This document shows positions 1,210-35,685 of a stretch of DNA of 40,277 nt, piece by piece (position 1 is the stretch's first letter; each line of letters starts with the position of its first letter). The position numbers were made by a program, and so were the translations under genes. The DNA is from Fibrobacter sp. Its GTDB lineage: Bacteria > Fibrobacterota > Fibrobacteria > Fibrobacterales > Fibrobacteraceae. The notes below the pieces were generated by a model that made no database searches, was not told the origin of the DNA, and saw only the letters and a program-made list of their open reading frames with translations. The stretch is from NCBI GenBank assembly GCA_012523035.1, contig JAAYJH010000055.1, positions 1 to 40,277 of the forward strand. The letters are read 5' to 3'.

Positions 1210-3119
1210 TCCAAAATCCTTATCTTTGTAACAAGGCGAGCCGTGGCATTGCACTTTAATTTTGCATATAAGACAGGGCTAGACACCTTTTCACCGAAAT
1301 GCTCCGAATACCAACCTAATATAGGTTTTTCTTGGCCTTGTATTATTTCATAATGTAAAAAGGGAGCTGGTTCAAGTAAAACAGGGCGACTACCTGGAAC
1401 TTGTAACAAAAAACCACTTTCTTTTTTTTCAATCATGACATTTGGATGAAAATGAAAAGGTATTTCAATCTCAAAATTTCCTATGCCTGTGAGAACATCT
1501 GTAATTACAAACTCATCTTTTTCTGAGTTAAAACAAATTTCTCGTATCACTTCCACACCTTGTTTTTTGTAGCCATTGTGAGTTGCTTTTATTACTTCTA
1601 ATGGATGATCCATGTTGAAAGATAAAGTCTGCACCTTATAATGATTCAACCACAATGTAGGGCCCGCTAAATCCGCTTGATTTTTTTTATTCACTTGAAT
1701 CGTATTGTGAGCTAAAGTACTTACAAAATACTCACGCCACTCGCGATGGGTGTGATAAGTATAGGTGCCAGAATCTACAAATATAGGTTTTCCATCGACA
1801 TGCAAAATAAAAGACAATGCATCAGCGTGTCCATGAGCAGCGATACTTAAAAAGCCTAATGGGGCTGCATCAAAATGCATATATGTTTCAAAATTTTCTT
1901 TTCGCTTTCTAAAAATATAATGGCCACTTTTTGGGAAAAAAGAAGATCCTAAAGGGTCTCCTAAGGCCTTTAACTGATCAAATATTACTTTTCCGTTTGC
2001 CCCCAGCAGCAAATTAGATTTATTATCCCAAGTTAAAGATTTTCGTTTTAATGTAGGGTCCTCAAAATAAGCAGCAAATGTGGATAATTGAGAGGTAAAA
2101 TTATTAAAATGTGCCTTTGAATAAGGACACAAAAGATAACCATCGTCCCCATCTCCATACATAGGATAGTTGTCTTTACAGTCTAAAAAAGCATTTAAAT
2201 ACTTAGCGATTTGATGTAGTTTTTTCTGGTAATTATCACTAAAAGGGACCCTTTTCTCTCTACCTACAATAGCAGCAACTAAAAAGAAGTCATTAATAAA
2301 TTGAATGTACTCTGCAGCTTCTTCTCGATTCACTCCTTCTACTGTGTGTTGGTTCTGAATCTCTTCTTCTAAACCTTTCTGTGCAAATTCAAAAATTTCT
2401 TTTTGATTAGGAAGATTTTTCCAAGTCAAAGAAGCAACATATAGTCCTGCATATTCAGAAACCAAATGATTATTTGCCGAAGAATAATACGAAGGGTGTT
2501 TGTGAGAATATTCAACATGATTGCAAATTAAAGGGTGCCAAATAGCATCTACAAATTGTCTGAATTTTTCGTTTGTTTTTATTAAAGATTCTGCATCGAT
2601 GAGCTTCCAGCAATAATGCCAATTGATCAATCGAATATTCACTTCTATGTTACTATACCAATTCACTCCTGTTAAATAAGGATTTTGCTGTGTCCAGCTG
2701 CTAATATGATACATCAGTAATTCTAAAAACTTTTCTTCTTTTGTTTTTTTATACTCCATAGCGATAAGAGTCAAAAAAAGCATTCGATTCACTTCCCAAA
2801 CATATTTTGCACTCCCAAACTGATCTGAACGAATATTAATTTGATGAGCAAAACTCAAAGGAAAAGACTTTCCAGAAGAAAGATCTATATGCCAATCAAT
2901 AGGTTTGTATATATCTACAAAAGTGTTGAAAATAAAAAACGAATGGTGAGCCTCGCTATCATTTATAATAGAGGAATAAGGTAGCTCCAATTTTACAGGA
3001 ATTAATTTTTTAAATAGTCTCTTATCTATAACATGAGTTTGGTATCGTTGACGCACACGATAAATTAATTCAGGGAGACTAAAGGTTTTTATTCTATTGA
3101 TATACCAAGAAAAAGACAT
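1206..3119 (-). CDS. Heparinase II/III family polysaccharide lyase
   Basis: A 637-residue protein of the heparinase II/III (alginate lyase-like) family, which cleaves uronic-acid polysaccharides by beta-elimination. An alpha-helical toroid domain (about residues 70-345) carries the conserved N-N-H (216-218). The C-terminal beta-sandwich domain starts near 390 and carries HGHADALS (429-436), DSGTYTYH (449-456) and a conserved AHNT (470-473). The N-terminus (WYINRIKTFSLPELIYRV) is the helix common to members encoded in polysaccharide gene clusters. No signal peptide is apparent, which is usual for this cluster-type subgroup and leaves its cellular location open. It lies between two glycosyltransferases, overlapping one by 4 bp, so it probably trims or edits the same polymer. 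Exact substrate unknown. Confidence 0.85.
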   Translation of the reverse strand: MSFSWYINRIKTFSLPELIYRVRQRYQTHVIDKRLFKKLIPVKLELPYSSIINDSEAHHSFFIFNTFVDIYKPIDWHIDLSSGKSFPLSFAHQINIRSDQFGSAKYVWEVNRMLFLTLIAMEYKKTKEEKFLELLMYHISSWTQQNPYLTGVNWYSNIEVNIRLINWHYCWKLIDAESLIKTNEKFRQFVDAIWHPLICNHVEYSHKHPSYYSSANNHLVSEYAGLYVASLTWKNLPNQKEIFEFAQKGLEEEIQNQHTVEGVNREEAAEYIQFINDFFLVAAIVGREKRVPFSDNYQKKLHQIAKYLNAFLDCKDNYPMYGDGDDGYLLCPYSKAHFNNFTSQLSTFAAYFEDPTLKRKSLTWDNKSNLLLGANGKVIFDQLKALGDPLGSSFFPKSGHYIFRKRKENFETYMHFDAAPLGFLSIAAHGHADALSFILHVDGKPIFVDSGTYTYHTHREWREYFVSTLAHNTIQVNKKNQADLAGPTLWLNHYKVQTLSFNMDHPLEVIKATHNGYKKQGVEVIREICFNSEKDEFVITDVLTGIGNFEIEIPFHFHPNVMIEKKESGFLLQVPGSRPVLLEPAPFLHYEIIQGQEKPILGWYSEHFGEKVSSPVLYAKLKCNATARLVTKIRILE

Positions 3120-3130
3120 CTTAGGCTCTA

Positions 3131-4327
3131 TTACAACTTTAAAAGCTTTTTATATGCCGAAATTAGTTTAGGTTTTTCAAAGTCCCAACTCAACTCTTTT
3201 TCTACTCGTTCACGCCCCCACTCTCCCATTTTTTTTGCCTCTTCAGGATGCTCTACCAACCAGATTATTTTATTTGCAAAATCTATTGTATCTGTGTTTT
3301 TGGCATACAAAGAAGACTTTCCTGCAGAAAAAGAACCTTCTTTGAGACTATATTGAACTATTGGTTTTGCAAAGGCCATGTATTCCATGATTTTATTCAT
3401 GGTGGATTTATCGTTCATTTCAGAGGGAATGTCTGGATTTACACAAAGGTCTGCTGTATTTAAAACATCCGCTAAGTACTCATTAGAAACTCTTCCTGGA
3501 AATTCCACATAAGCCTCTAAATTTAATTCTACAGACATTTGCATTAAATTTTCTCGAACTGGACCGTTTCCCATCAAACAAAAATAAATGTCTGTTCGAT
3601 TTTGGTCTTTGACTATGTATTCAATAGATTTTAAAAGCAGGTCAAGGCCTTCTTGCTGCCCCATAACACCAATATATGCCACCATATATTGAAAGCCTTT
3701 TTTTAGTTCTGGTTTAGCGGCTCCTACTTTTAATTTGGTTAGGTCTGGACCACTACGAACTACCGTCACTTCTGAGTCCTTTTTTTTGCCCCTCTCCATT
3801 GCAATTTGCTTATAAGAATCATTAGTGGCAATCACATGTTTTGCAAAAAAGAAAGTCCATCGTTCTGCCAAAAGCAAAGCCCTATAACCTAAGCCTTTTC
3901 TGTTAAACTTAGCTTTCCAAAGCTCTGGATTAATATCGTGGTGATCAAATAAAAAACGCGCTCGAGTGAATAAATAAAATGGGGCTGCTGGAATAAAAAT
4001 TAAATCTGGAGGATTACAAGCATGAATCACATCTTGAATACCATGAGTAGTAAAAACTTTGAATAAAAGACGAAATTCATGGTAAATCGCCGTTAAATAT
4101 TCTATAAAATACCCTTTAGTGGAGCTAGCTTCTGGTAAATAATGCCTGTAAACACGAATCCCGTCTATCTCTTCAAAAGGCAATGGGTATTCTTTAGTTT
4201 GTGGACAAATCACCGTCACTATAGCCCCTGCTTCTTGCAAAGCAAGAGCCTCTTGCCAGACTCTACGATCAAAAGGGACGGGTAAATTCTCTACAATCAT
4301 GCACACTTTTTTAGATTTTAAACTCAT
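3131..4327 (-). CDS. Glycosyltransferase family 4
   Basis: A 398-residue GT-B glycosyltransferase. The N-terminal Rossmann-like half begins KKVCMIVENLPVPFDRRVWQ, a signature common in exopolysaccharide GT4 enzymes ('FDRRVWxEA'). The C-terminal half has AYIGVMGQQEGLDLLL and the donor-site region DKSTMNKIMEYMAFAKPIV, where the usual first glutamate of E-x7-E is replaced within NDKSTMNKIMEYMA. That variant is common in this subgroup. It is separated by 3 bp from the GDP-mannose dehydrogenase gene and by 11 bp from the heparinase gene, so it is part of the same transcript. It probably transfers a hexose or uronic acid to the lipid-linked repeat unit; the specificity is not readable. Confidence 0.88.
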   Translation of the reverse strand: MSLKSKKVCMIVENLPVPFDRRVWQEALALQEAGAIVTVICPQTKEYPLPFEEIDGIRVYRHYLPEASSTKGYFIEYLTAIYHEFRLLFKVFTTHGIQDVIHACNPPDLIFIPAAPFYLFTRARFLFDHHDINPELWKAKFNRKGLGYRALLLAERWTFFFAKHVIATNDSYKQIAMERGKKKDSEVTVVRSGPDLTKLKVGAAKPELKKGFQYMVAYIGVMGQQEGLDLLLKSIEYIVKDQNRTDIYFCLMGNGPVRENLMQMSVELNLEAYVEFPGRVSNEYLADVLNTADLCVNPDIPSEMNDKSTMNKIMEYMAFAKPIVQYSLKEGSFSAGKSSLYAKNTDTIDFANKIIWLVEHPEEAKKMGEWGRERVEKELSWDFEKPKLISAYKKLLKL

Positions 4328-5648: not shown

Positions 5649-7019
5649 TTATTCTAATATTCCTTTACCTACTGAAGTGACTTCAAAACCAATTTTTCTA
5701 AGCATTGATTCATCTAAAACATTTCTACCATCAAAAACAAAAGCAGGCTTTTCCATGCTATCATAAATTCTCTTCCAATCTAACTGAGCATAGTGGGACC
5801 ATTCTGTGCAAACCACTATAGCATGCGAATCTTGAGCAGCTTTATACTCATCTTCTTCAAACTCTACTTTCGTGATCACATCTTGAAGGTCTCTTTTGGC
5901 TTCTGGAATCGCTTTAGGATCAGAAATTACTGGTAGGGCCTGTTCTTCTAAAAGATCGCGTACCACTAAATTAGCTGGGCTCTCTCGAGTGTCTCCTGTA
6001 TTGGCTTTAAACGCAAAACCATAAACAGCAATTCGCTTTCCAGCAATGGTGTTAAACATTTTTTCTAGCATTCTAGCCACAAATCGATGAGTTTGCCATT
6101 CATTGATTTTAACCACACTTTCCCAGTAGTCAGCCACTTCAGAAAGTCCGTAATACGAACATATATAGACTAAATTTAAAATATCTTTTTTAAAGCAAGA
6201 GCCTCCAAAACCTACACTTGCTTTTAAGAATTTGGAGCCGATACGAGAATCTTTACCCATGACATAAGCCACTTCATCAACATCTGCTCCTGTTTTTTCA
6301 CAAAGAGCACTAATACTGTTAATGGAGCTAATCCTTTGAGCTAAAAATGCATTGGCAGTCAATTTAGAAAGTTCTGCACTCCATAAATTGGTGGTTAAGA
6401 TTTGTTCTCTTGGCACCCAGTTCGCATAAATTTCAACTAAAGTTTGAGCCGCTTCTAAACCCGAAGGAGTTTGGTGACTTCCAATTAACACGCGATCAGG
6501 TTTTTCTAAATCTTGGATGGCTGTACCCTCAGCCAAAAATTCAGGGTTAGAAAGCACTTCAAAATGGAGGCCTTTTTCATTGGTGTTTAAAATTCTCTCC
6601 ATTGCAGCTGCAGTACGCACTGGCAAAGTCGATTTTTCAACAATGATTTTATTCGATTCGCTTTGTTTTAAAATTTGTCTAGCAGTTTTCTCCCAATATT
6701 GTAGATCGCTAGCCTTTCCAGCTCCTTGTCCAAAGGATTTAGTAGGAGTGTTCACGCTCACAAAAATAATATCAGCTTCTTTAATGGCAGCATCGATTTC
6801 TGTACTAAAAAACAAATTTCTACCACGAGCTCTTTGAACCACCTCATCTAAACCAGGCTCAAAAATAGGCAAGTGATCGCTATTCCAAGCATCTATTCGT
6901 TCTTTATTAATATCTACAACCGTCACTTTAAGATGAGGGCATCTATCTGCAATCACAGTCATAGTAGGACCACCCACATAACCAGCACCAATACATAAAA
7001 TATTTTTTTTGTTTAACAT
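5649..7019 (-). CDS. ugd: UDP-glucose 6-dehydrogenase (eukaryote-like type)
   Basis: A 456-residue enzyme that oxidises UDP-glucose to UDP-glucuronic acid. The NAD motif is CIGAGYVGGPTM (9-20). The catalytic cysteine is residue 275 in GFGGSCFKKD, close to Cys276 of human UGDH. The run ADRCPHLKVTVVDINKERI and the stretch IFEPGLDEVV are typical of the animal-type UGDH clade also found in some bacteria, and differ from the short bacterial Ugd. The length is slightly below animal enzymes (about 494). The gene follows the wzc-like gene by 24 bp and precedes algD by 4 bp. Glucuronate is probably a polymer building block here; it may also be a precursor for other UDP-sugars made elsewhere. Confidence 0.9.
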   Translation of the reverse strand: MLNKKNILCIGAGYVGGPTMTVIADRCPHLKVTVVDINKERIDAWNSDHLPIFEPGLDEVVQRARGRNLFFSTEIDAAIKEADIIFVSVNTPTKSFGQGAGKASDLQYWEKTARQILKQSESNKIIVEKSTLPVRTAAAMERILNTNEKGLHFEVLSNPEFLAEGTAIQDLEKPDRVLIGSHQTPSGLEAAQTLVEIYANWVPREQILTTNLWSAELSKLTANAFLAQRISSINSISALCEKTGADVDEVAYVMGKDSRIGSKFLKASVGFGGSCFKKDILNLVYICSYYGLSEVADYWESVVKINEWQTHRFVARMLEKMFNTIAGKRIAVYGFAFKANTGDTRESPANLVVRDLLEEQALPVISDPKAIPEAKRDLQDVITKVEFEEDEYKAAQDSHAIVVCTEWSHYAQLDWKRIYDSMEKPAFVFDGRNVLDESMLRKIGFEVTSVGKGILE

Positions 7020-9291: not shown

Positions 9292-10695
9292 CTAAAAAGA
9301 CCACGAAGTTCCATTAGGACCGTCTTGAATAGTCACCTTCATTTTGAGCAATTCATCTCGGATCTTATCGCTTTCGGACCAATTTTTCGCCTTTCTTGCC
9401 TCATTTCTTTGTGCCAGTAAATCTTCTATTTTTTTTACAATAGATGGATCTACCTCTGTTAGAGGCTCTAACCTAGATTGTCCCAAATTTAAACCCAAAA
9501 CTCGATCGAAATCTAAAACTAAACTCGCTTTTTCAAAATCTTCTAAATCCTCTTTGAGCATTTCGTTTAAAACACCCAAAGCCATAGGAGTATTTAAATC
9601 ATCACCAATCGCTTCTTTAAAGCTTTTTTGAATCTTTAAGGCAAGAGCACTTTTTATTTCTCCCCCTTTACCGATGAGTGGATCCGTTTTTCTACGCAAA
9701 CTTTTTAAAGATTCCCTTGCGTTTTCAAGAGCTTCCCAGGTGAAATTCAAATAATTTCTATAATGACTCGTCAATGCAAACAAACGATAATCTAAAGGAT
9801 CAAAACCTTTTTTTTGTAACAAAGAAATCGTTAAAAACTCCCCTGTACTTTTACTCATTTTACCCCCACCCATACGCAAAAACTCTCCATGGAGCCAAAA
9901 TCTAGAAAACAGTTTTCCAGTTGCACATTCACTTTGAGCAATTTCGTTGGTGTGGTGCACTCGTACATGGTCAGACCCCCCACAATGGATGTCCAAAGTT
10001 TCTCCTAAATGGTGCATTGCCATAGCCGAACACTCAATGTGCCAACCAGGAAAGCCTAGACCCCAAGGACTTTCCCACTCCATTGCTCTTTTTTGATTTG
10101 GTGGACTAAATTTCCATAAAGCAAAGTCTGTGGCAGAGCGTTTTTCTCCCATATCAATACGAGAACCCTGCCTTAGATTTTCAACATCCAGATTGGCAAA
10201 CTCTGGATAACGATTGAACTTTGCACTATCAAAATAAATCCCATCAGAAGTTTTATAAGTAAACCCCTTTGCTTCTAAGTTTTGAATAAGTTGAATTTGT
10301 TCTGGGATATGATCGGTGGCTTTACACCAAATGACAGGTTCCACAATATTTAAACTTTTCCAATCTTTCATAAAAGCTTGAGTATAATACTCTGCCACCT
10401 CCCAAACTGTTTTACCAGTCCTAGCGGCACCTTTTTCCATTTTATCATCTCCATCGTCTGCATCACTTGTCAAATGCCCTACATCTGTAATATTTACAAC
10501 ATGCTTCACAGAAAAACCATGATATTCTAGCGTACGACGAAGCACATCTTCAAAGATATAGGTCCTAAGATTCCCTATATGTGCATAATGATAAACAGTG
10601 GGTCCACAACAATACATTTTTACAGTATCATTTGTTTCTAACAACTGAAAAACTTCTTTGGAACGACTTGCGGTATTATAAAACTTTAAACTCAT
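9292..10695 (-). CDS. cysS: Cysteinyl-tRNA synthetase
   Basis: A 467-residue class I aminoacyl-tRNA synthetase that charges tRNA-Cys in the cytoplasm. The HIGH motif is HIGN (39-42) and the KMSKS motif is intact (279-283). Zinc ligands expected for CysRS are present: Cys30 in YCCGPT, Cys222 in GWHIECSAM and the HHTNE motif (247-251). A C-terminal anticodon-binding helical domain follows, and length is normal. The start is set by the conserved MSLKFYNT opening, although no strong Shine-Dalgarno is visible. It is divergent from gltX and appears monocistronic, or leads weakly into the polysaccharide operon on the same strand. Confidence 0.97.
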   Translation of the reverse strand: MSLKFYNTASRSKEVFQLLETNDTVKMYCCGPTVYHYAHIGNLRTYIFEDVLRRTLEYHGFSVKHVVNITDVGHLTSDADDGDDKMEKGAARTGKTVWEVAEYYTQAFMKDWKSLNIVEPVIWCKATDHIPEQIQLIQNLEAKGFTYKTSDGIYFDSAKFNRYPEFANLDVENLRQGSRIDMGEKRSATDFALWKFSPPNQKRAMEWESPWGLGFPGWHIECSAMAMHHLGETLDIHCGGSDHVRVHHTNEIAQSECATGKLFSRFWLHGEFLRMGGGKMSKSTGEFLTISLLQKKGFDPLDYRLFALTSHYRNYLNFTWEALENARESLKSLRRKTDPLIGKGGEIKSALALKIQKSFKEAIGDDLNTPMALGVLNEMLKEDLEDFEKASLVLDFDRVLGLNLGQSRLEPLTEVDPSIVKKIEDLLAQRNEARKAKNWSESDKIRDELLKMKVTIQDGPNGTSWSF

Positions 10696-32867: not shown

Positions 32868-33200
32868 ATGGCATACGATATTATCAACCTAAACGAAGAC
32901 CTAAGCTATCAAAAACAGGCAGTGATCAGTCGAGAAATCATCCGCAAAAACAACAGCACCGTCACTCTCTTTGCTTTTGACCAAGGGCAGGGCCTTAGCG
33001 AGCACAAAGCACCTTTTGATGCACTAGTTCATGTAGTCGATGGCGAAGTGGAAATCTCTATCGATGGAGAAAAGCACCATCTTAAAGCTGGAGAACTCAT
33101 CATCATGCCTGCCAACATTCCTCATGCTTTACAATCTATAACAGCATTCAAAATGGTGCTCACCATGCTAAGAACCCCCAAAGAAGATAAAAAAGACTAA
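32868..33200 (+). CDS. Small cupin-domain protein
   Basis: A 110-residue single-domain cupin. The chosen ATG (32868) has AGGA eight bases upstream; longer in-frame starts at 32775 or before would add a non-conserved tail. Cupin motif 1 is represented by SEHKAPFDALVHVVDGEVEI (expected G(x)5HxH(x)3,4E(x)6G) and motif 2 by GELIIMPANIPHAL (G(x)5PxG(x)2H(x)3N). The first histidine pair is incomplete (SEHKAP), so the metal site may be partial. Small cupins of this kind bind ligands or act as stress proteins; the function here is unknown. The stop overlaps the convergent licheninase gene by 4 bp. Confidence 0.82.
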   Translation: MAYDIINLNEDLSYQKQAVISREIIRKNNSTVTLFAFDQGQGLSEHKAPFDALVHVVDGEVEISIDGEKHHLKAGELIIMPANIPHALQSITAFKMVLTMLRTPKEDKKD

Positions 33201-34069
33201 GGATACTCAGAAGCTTTATAACGCCCATTCAAATCAAAAGTCCTCAACCACTTCAAAGTGTGTTTGGGGGCTTTTTGTCTTTTTATTCCAATACTCGAAG
33301 GGACTTCACCATTAAAACCCTCTTCATTGAGCTTAGTCATACTCAACACCAAAACTCCGTCTTGAACTTGTACATTAGAAGGGTGCATCGTCACACGGTT
33401 ATCATCAAAAGTCCAGTCTCCTTTACCCCAGCGAGACTCATCAAAAAACTCAAACTCATCGACCCACAACAAACTAAACACAGAATCTGCGTTGGGGGTG
33501 TATTCATAAACTTTCACCCAATCGATAAACTGCTGAACGGGCAATATAGATTCATCCCAAGGCCCCACCCAAGCAGGCACAGTAGAAGACCACAAATTAA
33601 ACCTTAAACTTTGAGCTTTCACCAAATTTTCCACTTGATTTTTAAGATCTGTGCTCCCCACTTCTGTCCGTCGCATTTCCACGCCATTCACAAACCACGC
33701 CACATAAGTCGGGGTCCATTCTATAGCATAGATATAATACACTTCACTAGCAGCTGGGTCCAAAGCGTGGTGTTTTTCGCTCATCACTTGTTTCTCTGCA
33801 CTCCCACTAATAATATTAGATTGAAAACTTTGTGGAGACTTTCCAAGCACTTCTATATCGATTTCCACCCATGGCTCTCCCCCTCCCAGCCAAGAATCGT
33901 CATAATAGAGGAACATTGAACTCACTAAAGCAGAACCTGCGGGCATTTTCATTTTTGCTTCAAACTTACCGTACTTAAAAGACTCTAGACTAAAAAGCTC
34001 TGCTCCAGAATAATCCTTAGCACATAAAATCACAAACGAGACTAAAATAAAGACAAATATATTTTTCAT
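33197..34069 (-). CDS. Circularly permuted 1,3-1,4-beta-D-glucanase (licheninase), GH16
   Basis: A 290-residue secreted enzyme that hydrolyses mixed-linkage beta-glucan. A signal peptide (core FVFILVSFVIL, cleavage after A17) is followed directly by KDYSGAELFSLES. The catalytic motif is E69-I-D71-I-E73 within PWVEIDIEVLGK, giving nucleophile E69 and acid/base E73. SFQSNIISG, LRFNLWSS and FIDWVKVYEYTP follow. Segment 198-255 (LWVDEFEFFDESRWGKGDWTFDDNRV) lies at the N-terminus in Bacillus licheninases but at the C-terminus here, the permuted order known from Fibrobacter succinogenes. A basic tail (about 260-290, WLRTFDLNGRYK) replaces the serine/proline-rich linker of that enzyme. GAGGAG lies eight bases before the ATG. 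Two inverted repeats lie upstream. Confidence 0.95.
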   Translation of the reverse strand: MKNIFVFILVSFVILCAKDYSGAELFSLESFKYGKFEAKMKMPAGSALVSSMFLYYDDSWLGGGEPWVEIDIEVLGKSPQSFQSNIISGSAEKQVMSEKHHALDPAASEVYYIYAIEWTPTYVAWFVNGVEMRRTEVGSTDLKNQVENLVKAQSLRFNLWSSTVPAWVGPWDESILPVQQFIDWVKVYEYTPNADSVFSLLWVDEFEFFDESRWGKGDWTFDDNRVTMHPSNVQVQDGVLVLSMTKLNEEGFNGEVPSSIGIKRQKAPKHTLKWLRTFDLNGRYKASEYP

Positions 34070-34105
34070 AATTCAACTCCTCGGCTTTTATTAAAATTAC
34101 TAAAA

Positions 34106-34130
34106 AATTCACCTAAAACAAAGGTAAATT
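34106..34130. promoter_or_regulatory. Imperfect inverted repeat upstream of the licheninase gene
   Basis: AATTCACCT and AGGTAAATT are 9-base arms separated by seven bases, pairing at 8 of 9 positions. The repeat is centred about 49 bp upstream of the licheninase ATG, within the leader or promoter. Neither orientation ends in a T-run, so an operator or leader hairpin is possible. Confidence 0.3.
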
Positions 34131-34159: not shown

Positions 34160-34190
34160 TTTTAATGTGGACAATTTGTCCACATTAAAA
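34160..34190. promoter_or_regulatory. 31-bp perfect palindrome, candidate operator of the licheninase gene
   Basis: The half-site TTTTAATGTGGACAA (34160-34174) is repeated exactly as its reverse complement at 34176-34190, with one base between. It lies about 105 bp upstream of the licheninase ATG and beyond the trpB2 terminator. The central TGTGGACAA/TTGTCCACA resembles a dimeric repressor or activator site; its runs of A and T sit outside the arms, unlike a terminator. The cognate protein is unknown. Confidence 0.6.
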
Positions 34191-34199
34191 AATCGAATC

Positions 34200-34226
34200 A
34201 AAAAAAGCCCATAAAGAGCTCTTTTA
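34200..34226 (-). terminator. Rho-independent terminator after trpB2
   Basis: Read on the minus strand, AAAAGAGCTC-TTTAT-GGGCTTTTTTT forms a stem with two G-U pairs and ends in a run of T. It starts about 10 bases after the trpB2 stop and separates trpB2 from the licheninase gene. Confidence 0.72.
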
Positions 34227-34236
34227 ATTTCACTAC

Positions 34237-35685
34237 TCACTTATTGTATTTTAGAGCAAACTCACTGCGATCTATATTTTGAGGGGTCCATTTACCGGTA
34301 TTTCGTATTTCTGCCTTTGGAAAACCTTTTTCTTGAAGTCTGGCTTCGGTGGCATCGATTTCACTTTGGGGCAAATTATAATCCAAAAGTTCTTTATTCA
34401 AGTACTTCTCATAACCCACCATATCTAAATAACCGTGTCCAGACATCGTGAACAAAATAGTCTTCTCTTTCCCTTCTTCTCGGGCTTTGATAGCCTCACG
34501 AATCACAGCCGCCACCGTATGAGAAGACTCTGGAGCAATGACCCAGCCTTCTGTCCTTGCCCAGCGAATTGCCGCTTGAAAGCACTCATTTTGAGGCACT
34601 GCGGTAGGGGTAAACAAACCTTCATTCACAGCCTGACTCACAATAGGCGACATACCGTGATAACGAAGCCCTCCAGCATGGATACTACTAGGGATATAAT
34701 CATGCCCCAAGGTATGCATTGGCAAAAGTGGTGTAAAGCCTGTCAAATCGCCATAATCATAAGTAAAAACACCTCGAGTCAAAGAAGGGCAACTCGTAGG
34801 CTCCACTGGAATAATTTCAATATCTTGACCATGGATTTTATCATAAGCAAAAGGGAAAGCCATCCCAGCAAAATTAGACCCACCACCAGCACAAGACAAC
34901 ACAATATCAGGCTTTTTAATCCCAATCATTTCAAGTTGCTTTTTGGCTTCGAGCCCAATCACCGTTTGGTGGAGCATCACATGGTTCAGCACAGAACCAA
35001 GAGCATATTTGGTGCTCCCCGTTTTATCACCAATAGCAAGTTCAACCGCTTCAGAAATAGCAATTCCCAAAGAACCTGGACAATGAGGGTCATTTTGAAG
35101 GACTTTACGCCCCACCTCTGTGATCTCGCTAGGACTAGCAATACAGGTACCACCCCAAGTACGCATCAAAGCTTTTCTAAAGGGTTTTTGCTCATAACTC
35201 ACCTTCACCATAAAAACTTTACAATCGATGCCCATCAATTTACAAGCAAAAGAAAGAGCACCTCCCCATTGACCAGCACCAGTTTCAGTAGTAATCGTTT
35301 TGGTACCGGCTTGCTTATTGTACCATGCCTGAGCAATAGCGGTATTGCCTTTGTGACTCCCTGCGGGGCTCACACTTTCATCTTTATAATAAATCTTGGC
35401 GGGTGTTTTTAAGTACTCTTCCAACCAATAAGCGCGTCGAAGGGGTGTTGGTCTAAAACGCATCAAGTGCCCTCGAATTTCGTCTGGAATTTTAATCCAA
35501 GAATCCGTGGACATCTCTTGTTCTAAAATATTATGGGGGAATATAGCGGCCATTTGCTCCAAAGAAACTGGCTTACCGTCGGAACCCAAAGGAGGTAGCA
35601 TAGGGGTAGGCAAATCGGCGGCCAAATTATACCATTCTCGTGGCATATCATTAGGATTCAAGTAAATTTGAGCATGTTCGTACAT
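34237..35685 (-). CDS. TrpB2-type tryptophan synthase beta chain-like enzyme
   Basis: A 482-residue PLP enzyme of the TrpB2 subgroup, which is longer than TrpB1 (about 400). The PLP lysine is K112 in GSHKGNTA, and the phosphate-binding glycine-rich loop is CAGGGSNFAGM. The N-terminal extension (LNPNDMPREWYNLAADLPTPMLPPL) and the opening EIRGHLMRFRPTPLRRAYWLEE are typical of TrpB2. Such enzymes make tryptophan from indole and serine and may work without TrpA or replace TrpB1. No other trp gene is in the window. AGGTG lies seven bases before the ATG. It follows the prepilin peptidase gene by 33 bp on the same strand and ends in a clear terminator. Confidence 0.92.
   Translation of the reverse strand: MYEHAQIYLNPNDMPREWYNLAADLPTPMLPPLGSDGKPVSLEQMAAIFPHNILEQEMSTDSWIKIPDEIRGHLMRFRPTPLRRAYWLEEYLKTPAKIYYKDESVSPAGSHKGNTAIAQAWYNKQAGTKTITTETGAGQWGGALSFACKLMGIDCKVFMVKVSYEQKPFRKALMRTWGGTCIASPSEITEVGRKVLQNDPHCPGSLGIAISEAVELAIGDKTGSTKYALGSVLNHVMLHQTVIGLEAKKQLEMIGIKKPDIVLSCAGGGSNFAGMAFPFAYDKIHGQDIEIIPVEPTSCPSLTRGVFTYDYGDLTGFTPLLPMHTLGHDYIPSSIHAGGLRYHGMSPIVSQAVNEGLFTPTAVPQNECFQAAIRWARTEGWVIAPESSHTVAAVIREAIKAREEGKEKTILFTMSGHGYLDMVGYEKYLNKELLDYNLPQSEIDATEARLQEKGFPKAEIRNTGKWTPQNIDRSEFALKYNK

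Follow-up and report, generated by a model that had tools for sequence, protein, structure and literature searches.

A 31-bp palindrome upstream of a Fibrobacteraceae licheninase gene is a probable operator of a TIGR02147-type activator of a hemicellulose regulon

Results

A perfect palindrome lies between trpB2 and a GH16 gene

The window analysed here, a stretch of 40,277 nucleotides from a 2.2-Mb draft Fibrobacteraceae genome (G000), contains a perfect palindrome of 31 bp located between trpB2 and a glycoside hydrolase gene (Table 1). Two exact arms of 15 nucleotides flank one central base (TTTTAATGTGGACAA-T-TTGTCCACATTAAAA). The initial annotation had described the element correctly in both position and sequence, and its estimate of about 105 bp to the licheninase start agrees with the 106 bp measured from the palindrome centre to the ATG (34069). 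The licheninase label is right at the family level, as judged by the Pfam GH16 match; a match to NCBIfam BglS (1.4e-28) falls under the curated cutoff. The weak U-run hairpin adjoining trpB2, also anticipated as a separate terminator, is probably the terminator of that gene and distinct from the operator, and terminator hairpins are found at the equivalent place after trpB2 in relatives. The trpB2 gene is not thought to belong to the regulon described below.

An exact match of this length had been called unlikely by chance, and shuffling bears this out. Among 40 dinucleotide-shuffled versions of the window (loops of 0-8) the longest perfect arm averaged 9.6 nucleotides and reached at most 14, compared to 15 in the palindrome, and the expected number of occurrences of the 19-bp core in the window is 0.00.

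Table 1. Features at the locus, related sites in the same genome and the candidate regulator gene
Feature	Position	Strand	Evidence or remark
GH16 glycoside hydrolase (licheninase/beta-glucanase type), proposed target	33197..34069	-	Pfam PF00722, 9.7e-24
GAGGAG, likely ribosome-binding site of the GH16 gene	34077..34082	-	sequence
-10-like box TACCTTTG, putative promoter element	34119..34126	-	49-56 bp downstream of operator centre
Proposed operator, 31-bp perfect palindrome	34160..34190	.	sequence and matrix score
Conserved 19-bp core TGTGGACAATTTGTCCACA	34166-34184		inside the 31-bp palindrome
Weak hairpin with U-run just after trpB2	34200..34226	-	RNA fold
TrpB2-type PLP enzyme gene (trpB2), upstream neighbour	34237..35685	-	NCBIfam PRK12391 / TIGR01415
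Genome site in the window			before GH16
Genome sites on contig C5 (four)			before GH43-CBM6, GH10-CBM6, PHB-depolymerase-type esterase and TIGR02147 regulator
Genome sites on contig C66 (two)			before SASA-type acetylesterase with CBM6 and alpha/beta-hydrolase with CarboxypepD_reg domain
TIGR02147-X gene	L077 (G000:C5) 2886-3746	-	split by one in-frame TAG

The site recurs upstream of hemicellulase, esterase and regulator genes

The genome search proposed in the initial annotation was run with the pattern TRTGGAYAANTTRTCYAYA, permitting at most one mismatch. Seven sites were recovered. All seven precede a plant cell-wall gene or a TIGR02147 regulator gene, with 86-108 bp between site centre and start codon; the window copy is the most perfect palindrome among them. 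Thus the sequence is not confined to this locus, and GH43, GH10 and esterase genes are preceded by it as well.

Across the family, sites with at most one mismatch were found in 25 of 41 genomes, while a reversed-pattern control, also palindromic and of equal composition, returned almost none. Counting distinct sites in genomes of the genera that have the candidate regulator (see below), 39 of 44 precede a hemicellulase, esterase or regulator gene (GH10, GH43, GH5, GH27, GH30, GH54, GH141, GH39-like, esterase and regulator classes); for approximately eight of these 39 targets the assignment comes from similarity of the protein start to Pfam-scanned proteins. The remaining five sites comprise two each in G003 and G017 and one in G041. 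One of the G003 sites is unclear; the other (TGTGGTCAAATTATCCACA; G003:C11 (L140) 5739-5757) is situated 171 bp before a gene with a pyruvate phosphate dikinase-like protein start, which may be coincidental or may tie the site to central metabolism. Some regulator-carrying genomes had no site at the one-mismatch threshold. In the regulator-less genus g5, four sites were located inside reading frames or without such a gene nearby. The short core WTGGAYANNNTRTCCAW proved too loose for regulon counting, with 16 occurrences versus 1 for the control in G049, 11 versus 5 in G016 and 14 versus 12 in the regulator-less G004.

These genome and family searches strongly support the proposal that the operator is shared with other glycoside hydrolase genes, and the palindrome almost certainly serves as the binding site of a regulatory protein. 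Because the site is symmetric, it would be bound by a dimer. The suggestion that the regulator senses beta-glucan products was not supported, since the main targets outside the window encode xylan and hemicellulose enzymes (GH10, GH43, GH30, GH54, and acetyl- and feruloyl-type esterases) and the GH16 orthologs of relatives lack the site. As the same site precedes many fibre-digesting genes and one regulator gene, its pattern hints at how the Fibrobacter family controls its hemicellulose-digesting enzymes.

A TIGR02147-family protein is the candidate regulator

The regulator gene preceded by the site on contig C5 encodes a TIGR02147/DUF4423-family protein, here named TIGR02147-X. Read through its in-frame TAG, the protein scores 197 bits against TIGR02147 (NCBIfam "Fsuc_second", a paralogous family; cutoff 50 bits), and its two halves score 91.5 and 75.6 bits, so that whole or divided it is far above the cutoff. 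As in the family, the C-terminal half matches DUF4423 (Pfam PF14394). The TAG replaces a codon that specifies Glu in relatives, and both halves still resemble intact orthologs; the protein may be inactive in this genome, or the TAG may be an error of the draft assembly. The closest named relatives of the gene are all from Fibrobacterota, including F. intestinalis ATCC 43854 and F. succinogenes assemblies. Orthologs were found in eight genera and were not found in genera g5, g7 and g8, from which motif and regulator are jointly absent.

The motif TGGAY-N5-RTCCA (at most one mismatch) is present 60-110 bp upstream of 27 of 28 TIGR02147-X genes, and upstream of none of nine TIGR02147 paralogs. 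Among named genomes, 65 of 67 orthologs are preceded by the site; together with their flanks these sites comprise 60 different sequences. When inverted repeats upstream of the 28 genes were counted without a preset motif, TGGAC-N5-GTCCA ranked first, with exact copies in 10 of the 28 regions compared to at most 5 in shuffles. One ortholog (G003:C46, L128) has two sites upstream, at 9576 and 10064 (~490 bp apart), one of them at the usual distance.

A structure model of TIGR02147-X was confident for the N-terminal helical region and of low confidence for the C-terminal half. The best partial Foldseek matches of the N-terminus were SinR, CapH and lambda repressor, at probabilities of 0.96-0.99 but with E > 0.1; a sequence search of solved structures returned nothing useful.

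TIGR02147 genes are multiplied in the Fibrobacteraceae, with nine loci in the window's genome (L097-L105) and, at first look, up to 41 candidates in G010 and 37 in G049. Some adjoin CAZyme genes; the one at G000:C7:44018, for example, is a neighbour of a GH9 gene (C7:45415). This arrangement suggests that more pairs of regulator and operator exist.

A matrix built from regulator promoters predicts enzyme promoters

A position weight matrix was trained only on sites in TIGR02147-X promoters, none of them from the window's genome. Applied to one group of GH10 genes, it detected clear sites (12-27 bits) in 31 of 57 promoters, against a background in which 99% of shuffles scored below 8 bits; one further promoter at 9.3 bits was left uncounted. 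Nearly all of these sites share a common distance from the gene. The site-bearing GH10 genes are mostly the longer ones, as judged by reading-frame length, and those scanned carry CBM6. A second GH10 group (15 promoters) contained one clear and one weak site, and no site was detected in 20 GH9 cellulase promoters or in 11 GH10 promoters of regulator-less genomes. In the window the palindrome scored 24.6 bits, with the next best position in the 40 kb at 9.4 bits.

Promoter geometry favours activation

When promoters were aligned on the site centre, a -10-like element, ATAnnTT(T), was observed approximately 50 bp downstream. TAnnTTT occurred at offsets 46-53 in 15/28 GH10 promoters, 12/24 other promoters and 5/7 promoters of the window's genome, compared to at most 2/28, 1/24 and 1/7, respectively, in control windows of equal size. 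The spacing was less uniform in regulator promoters (18/61), where a second mode was present. In the GH16 promoter, TACCTTTG lies at offset 49. Placed by means of this element, the transcript start would fall approximately 62 bp away from the centre of the site. A site centred ~62 bp upstream of the transcript start is the geometry of a class I activator, and on these grounds we prefer activation over repression.

Many palindromic operators are repressor sites, and autoregulation is common among repressors. For TIGR02147-X to repress at the palindrome it would have to block transcription from a site that, with the -10-like box ~50 bp downstream, does not overlap the inferred -35 and -10 regions; simple repression is disfavoured for this reason, and we consider a repressor unlikely.

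The identity of the binding protein

The identity of the regulator rests on the conserved sites before its own gene, a pattern that would be compatible with a different regulator too: a master regulator may have a second regulator among its targets, in which case some other DNA-binding protein would bind the same hemicellulose-regulon operator and TIGR02147-X would be only a target gene. Several observations make this improbable. The site precedes TIGR02147-X genes more steadily (65/67) than any enzyme class tested; motif and protein were lost together in g5, g7 and g8; a footprint of this kind is usually due to autoregulation; and TIGR02147-X has a predicted N-terminal helix-turn-helix. Judged from these sequence patterns, the palindrome is very probably a hemicellulose-regulon operator bound by a TIGR02147-family protein.

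Two readings that dispense with such a regulator fare far worse. The predicted RNA hairpin of the palindrome is highly stable (-17.3 kcal/mol, z -7.3), which speaks for an intrinsic terminator or RNA element downstream of trpB2. The stem lacks a T-run on either side, as the initial annotation had correctly noted, and a search there gave no terminator consensus; a separate U-run hairpin is nearer to trpB2, comparison with Rfam returned only matches far below the gathering score, the palindrome is not kept 3′ of trpB2 orthologs in relatives, and the sequence itself, beyond its pairing, recurs before unrelated genes. We regard an RNA function as highly improbable.

Least probable of all, and barely credible, is a head-to-head pair of DnaA boxes acting in replication control: half-sites of several copies in the window's genome (TTGTCCACA / TTATCCACA) resemble DnaA boxes, but the outer CA is replaced in relatives (TCCATA, TCCATG, TCCACG) and the copies precede hemicellulase and regulator genes, being neither scattered nor at an origin. 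With the outer bases varying in this way, the two arms do not each keep a 9-bp DnaA box.

The GH16 gene appears to have changed regulators

No site was found before the GH16 orthologs of relatives, and the window copy is thus not conserved at its own gene. Most family orthologs instead carry a direct repeat near TGATACANTTGATACAGT, 100-200 bp upstream (L048-L065; e.g. G003:C2:32062-32079), possibly a binding site for a different regulator; this repeat is absent from the GH16 promoter of the window's genome. Because the relatives lack the palindrome and mostly carry the repeat that is missing here, it seems that in this lineage the licheninase gene came under a different regulator. In G005 exact copies of the 18-mer CGATACAGTCGATACAGT are numerous and spread over at least 15 contigs (e.g. 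C6:22278-22295), resembling a dispersed repeat or a large regulon.

Discussion

Taken together, these results support a model, to which we assign a probability of roughly 0.78, in which a TIGR02147-type activator controls a xylan/hemicellulose regulon, with the palindrome as its operator, and the licheninase gene has joined that regulon. A TIGR02147-X dimer would bind two TGGAYAA half-sites through an N-terminal lambda-repressor-like helix-turn-helix and act as a class I activator from a site centred near -62. It would activate its own gene and switch on the xylan/hemicellulose regulon, into which the GH16 beta-glucanase gene would have been recruited in this lineage.

More tentatively, and with somewhat less than even confidence, we propose that this is the first DNA site and regulon for TIGR02147/DUF4423; that its paralogs are lineage-specific one-component activators with operators of their own, replacing the usual CAZyme regulators; and that the GH16 gene moved into this regulon from another one, which the TGATACA direct repeat marks in relatives.

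The regulation of cellulase genes in F. succinogenes has been called an unanswered question (PMC3079729). RNA-seq of F. succinogenes S85 revealed tightly controlled hemicellulase genes and growth-rate-controlled co-expression clusters enriched in CBM6/CE6/GH10 and CBM6/GH43, and names neither a regulator nor a DNA motif (PMC6204037). The enzyme families of these clusters (CBM6, CE6, GH10 and GH43) match the regulon proposed here, and a candidate regulator, a DNA site and a target list can now be named for hemicellulase control in Fibrobacter. We found no prior assignment for TIGR02147, DUF4423 or Fibrobacter regulators in open-access papers: TIGR02147 is not mentioned there, with no site, regulon or function recorded for the family, and the sole paper naming DUF4423 lists it without a function. 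If correct, the model would provide the first function for an orphan family of regulators of which Fibrobacter carries many copies.

The proposed system can be compared with two known types of regulator. CelR of Thermobifida fusca (cited in PMC3079729) is a LacI-type CAZyme regulator. CelR-like LacI regulators combine, as proposed here, a one-component protein and a palindromic operator that stands in front of several genes for polysaccharide degradation. They differ from TIGR02147-X, for which a lambda-repressor/XRE-like helix-turn-helix is predicted and which has DUF4423 and no LacI domains; the half-site here is TGGAYAA, and the site lies well upstream of the promoter, where an activator would bind. 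CRP, a class I activator, likewise binds a palindromic site ~62 bp upstream of the transcript start, a distance placed here from the -10-like box only, and comes from an unrelated protein family. The palindrome would work like a classical palindromic operator, and the proposed regulator belongs to a family that had no assigned site.
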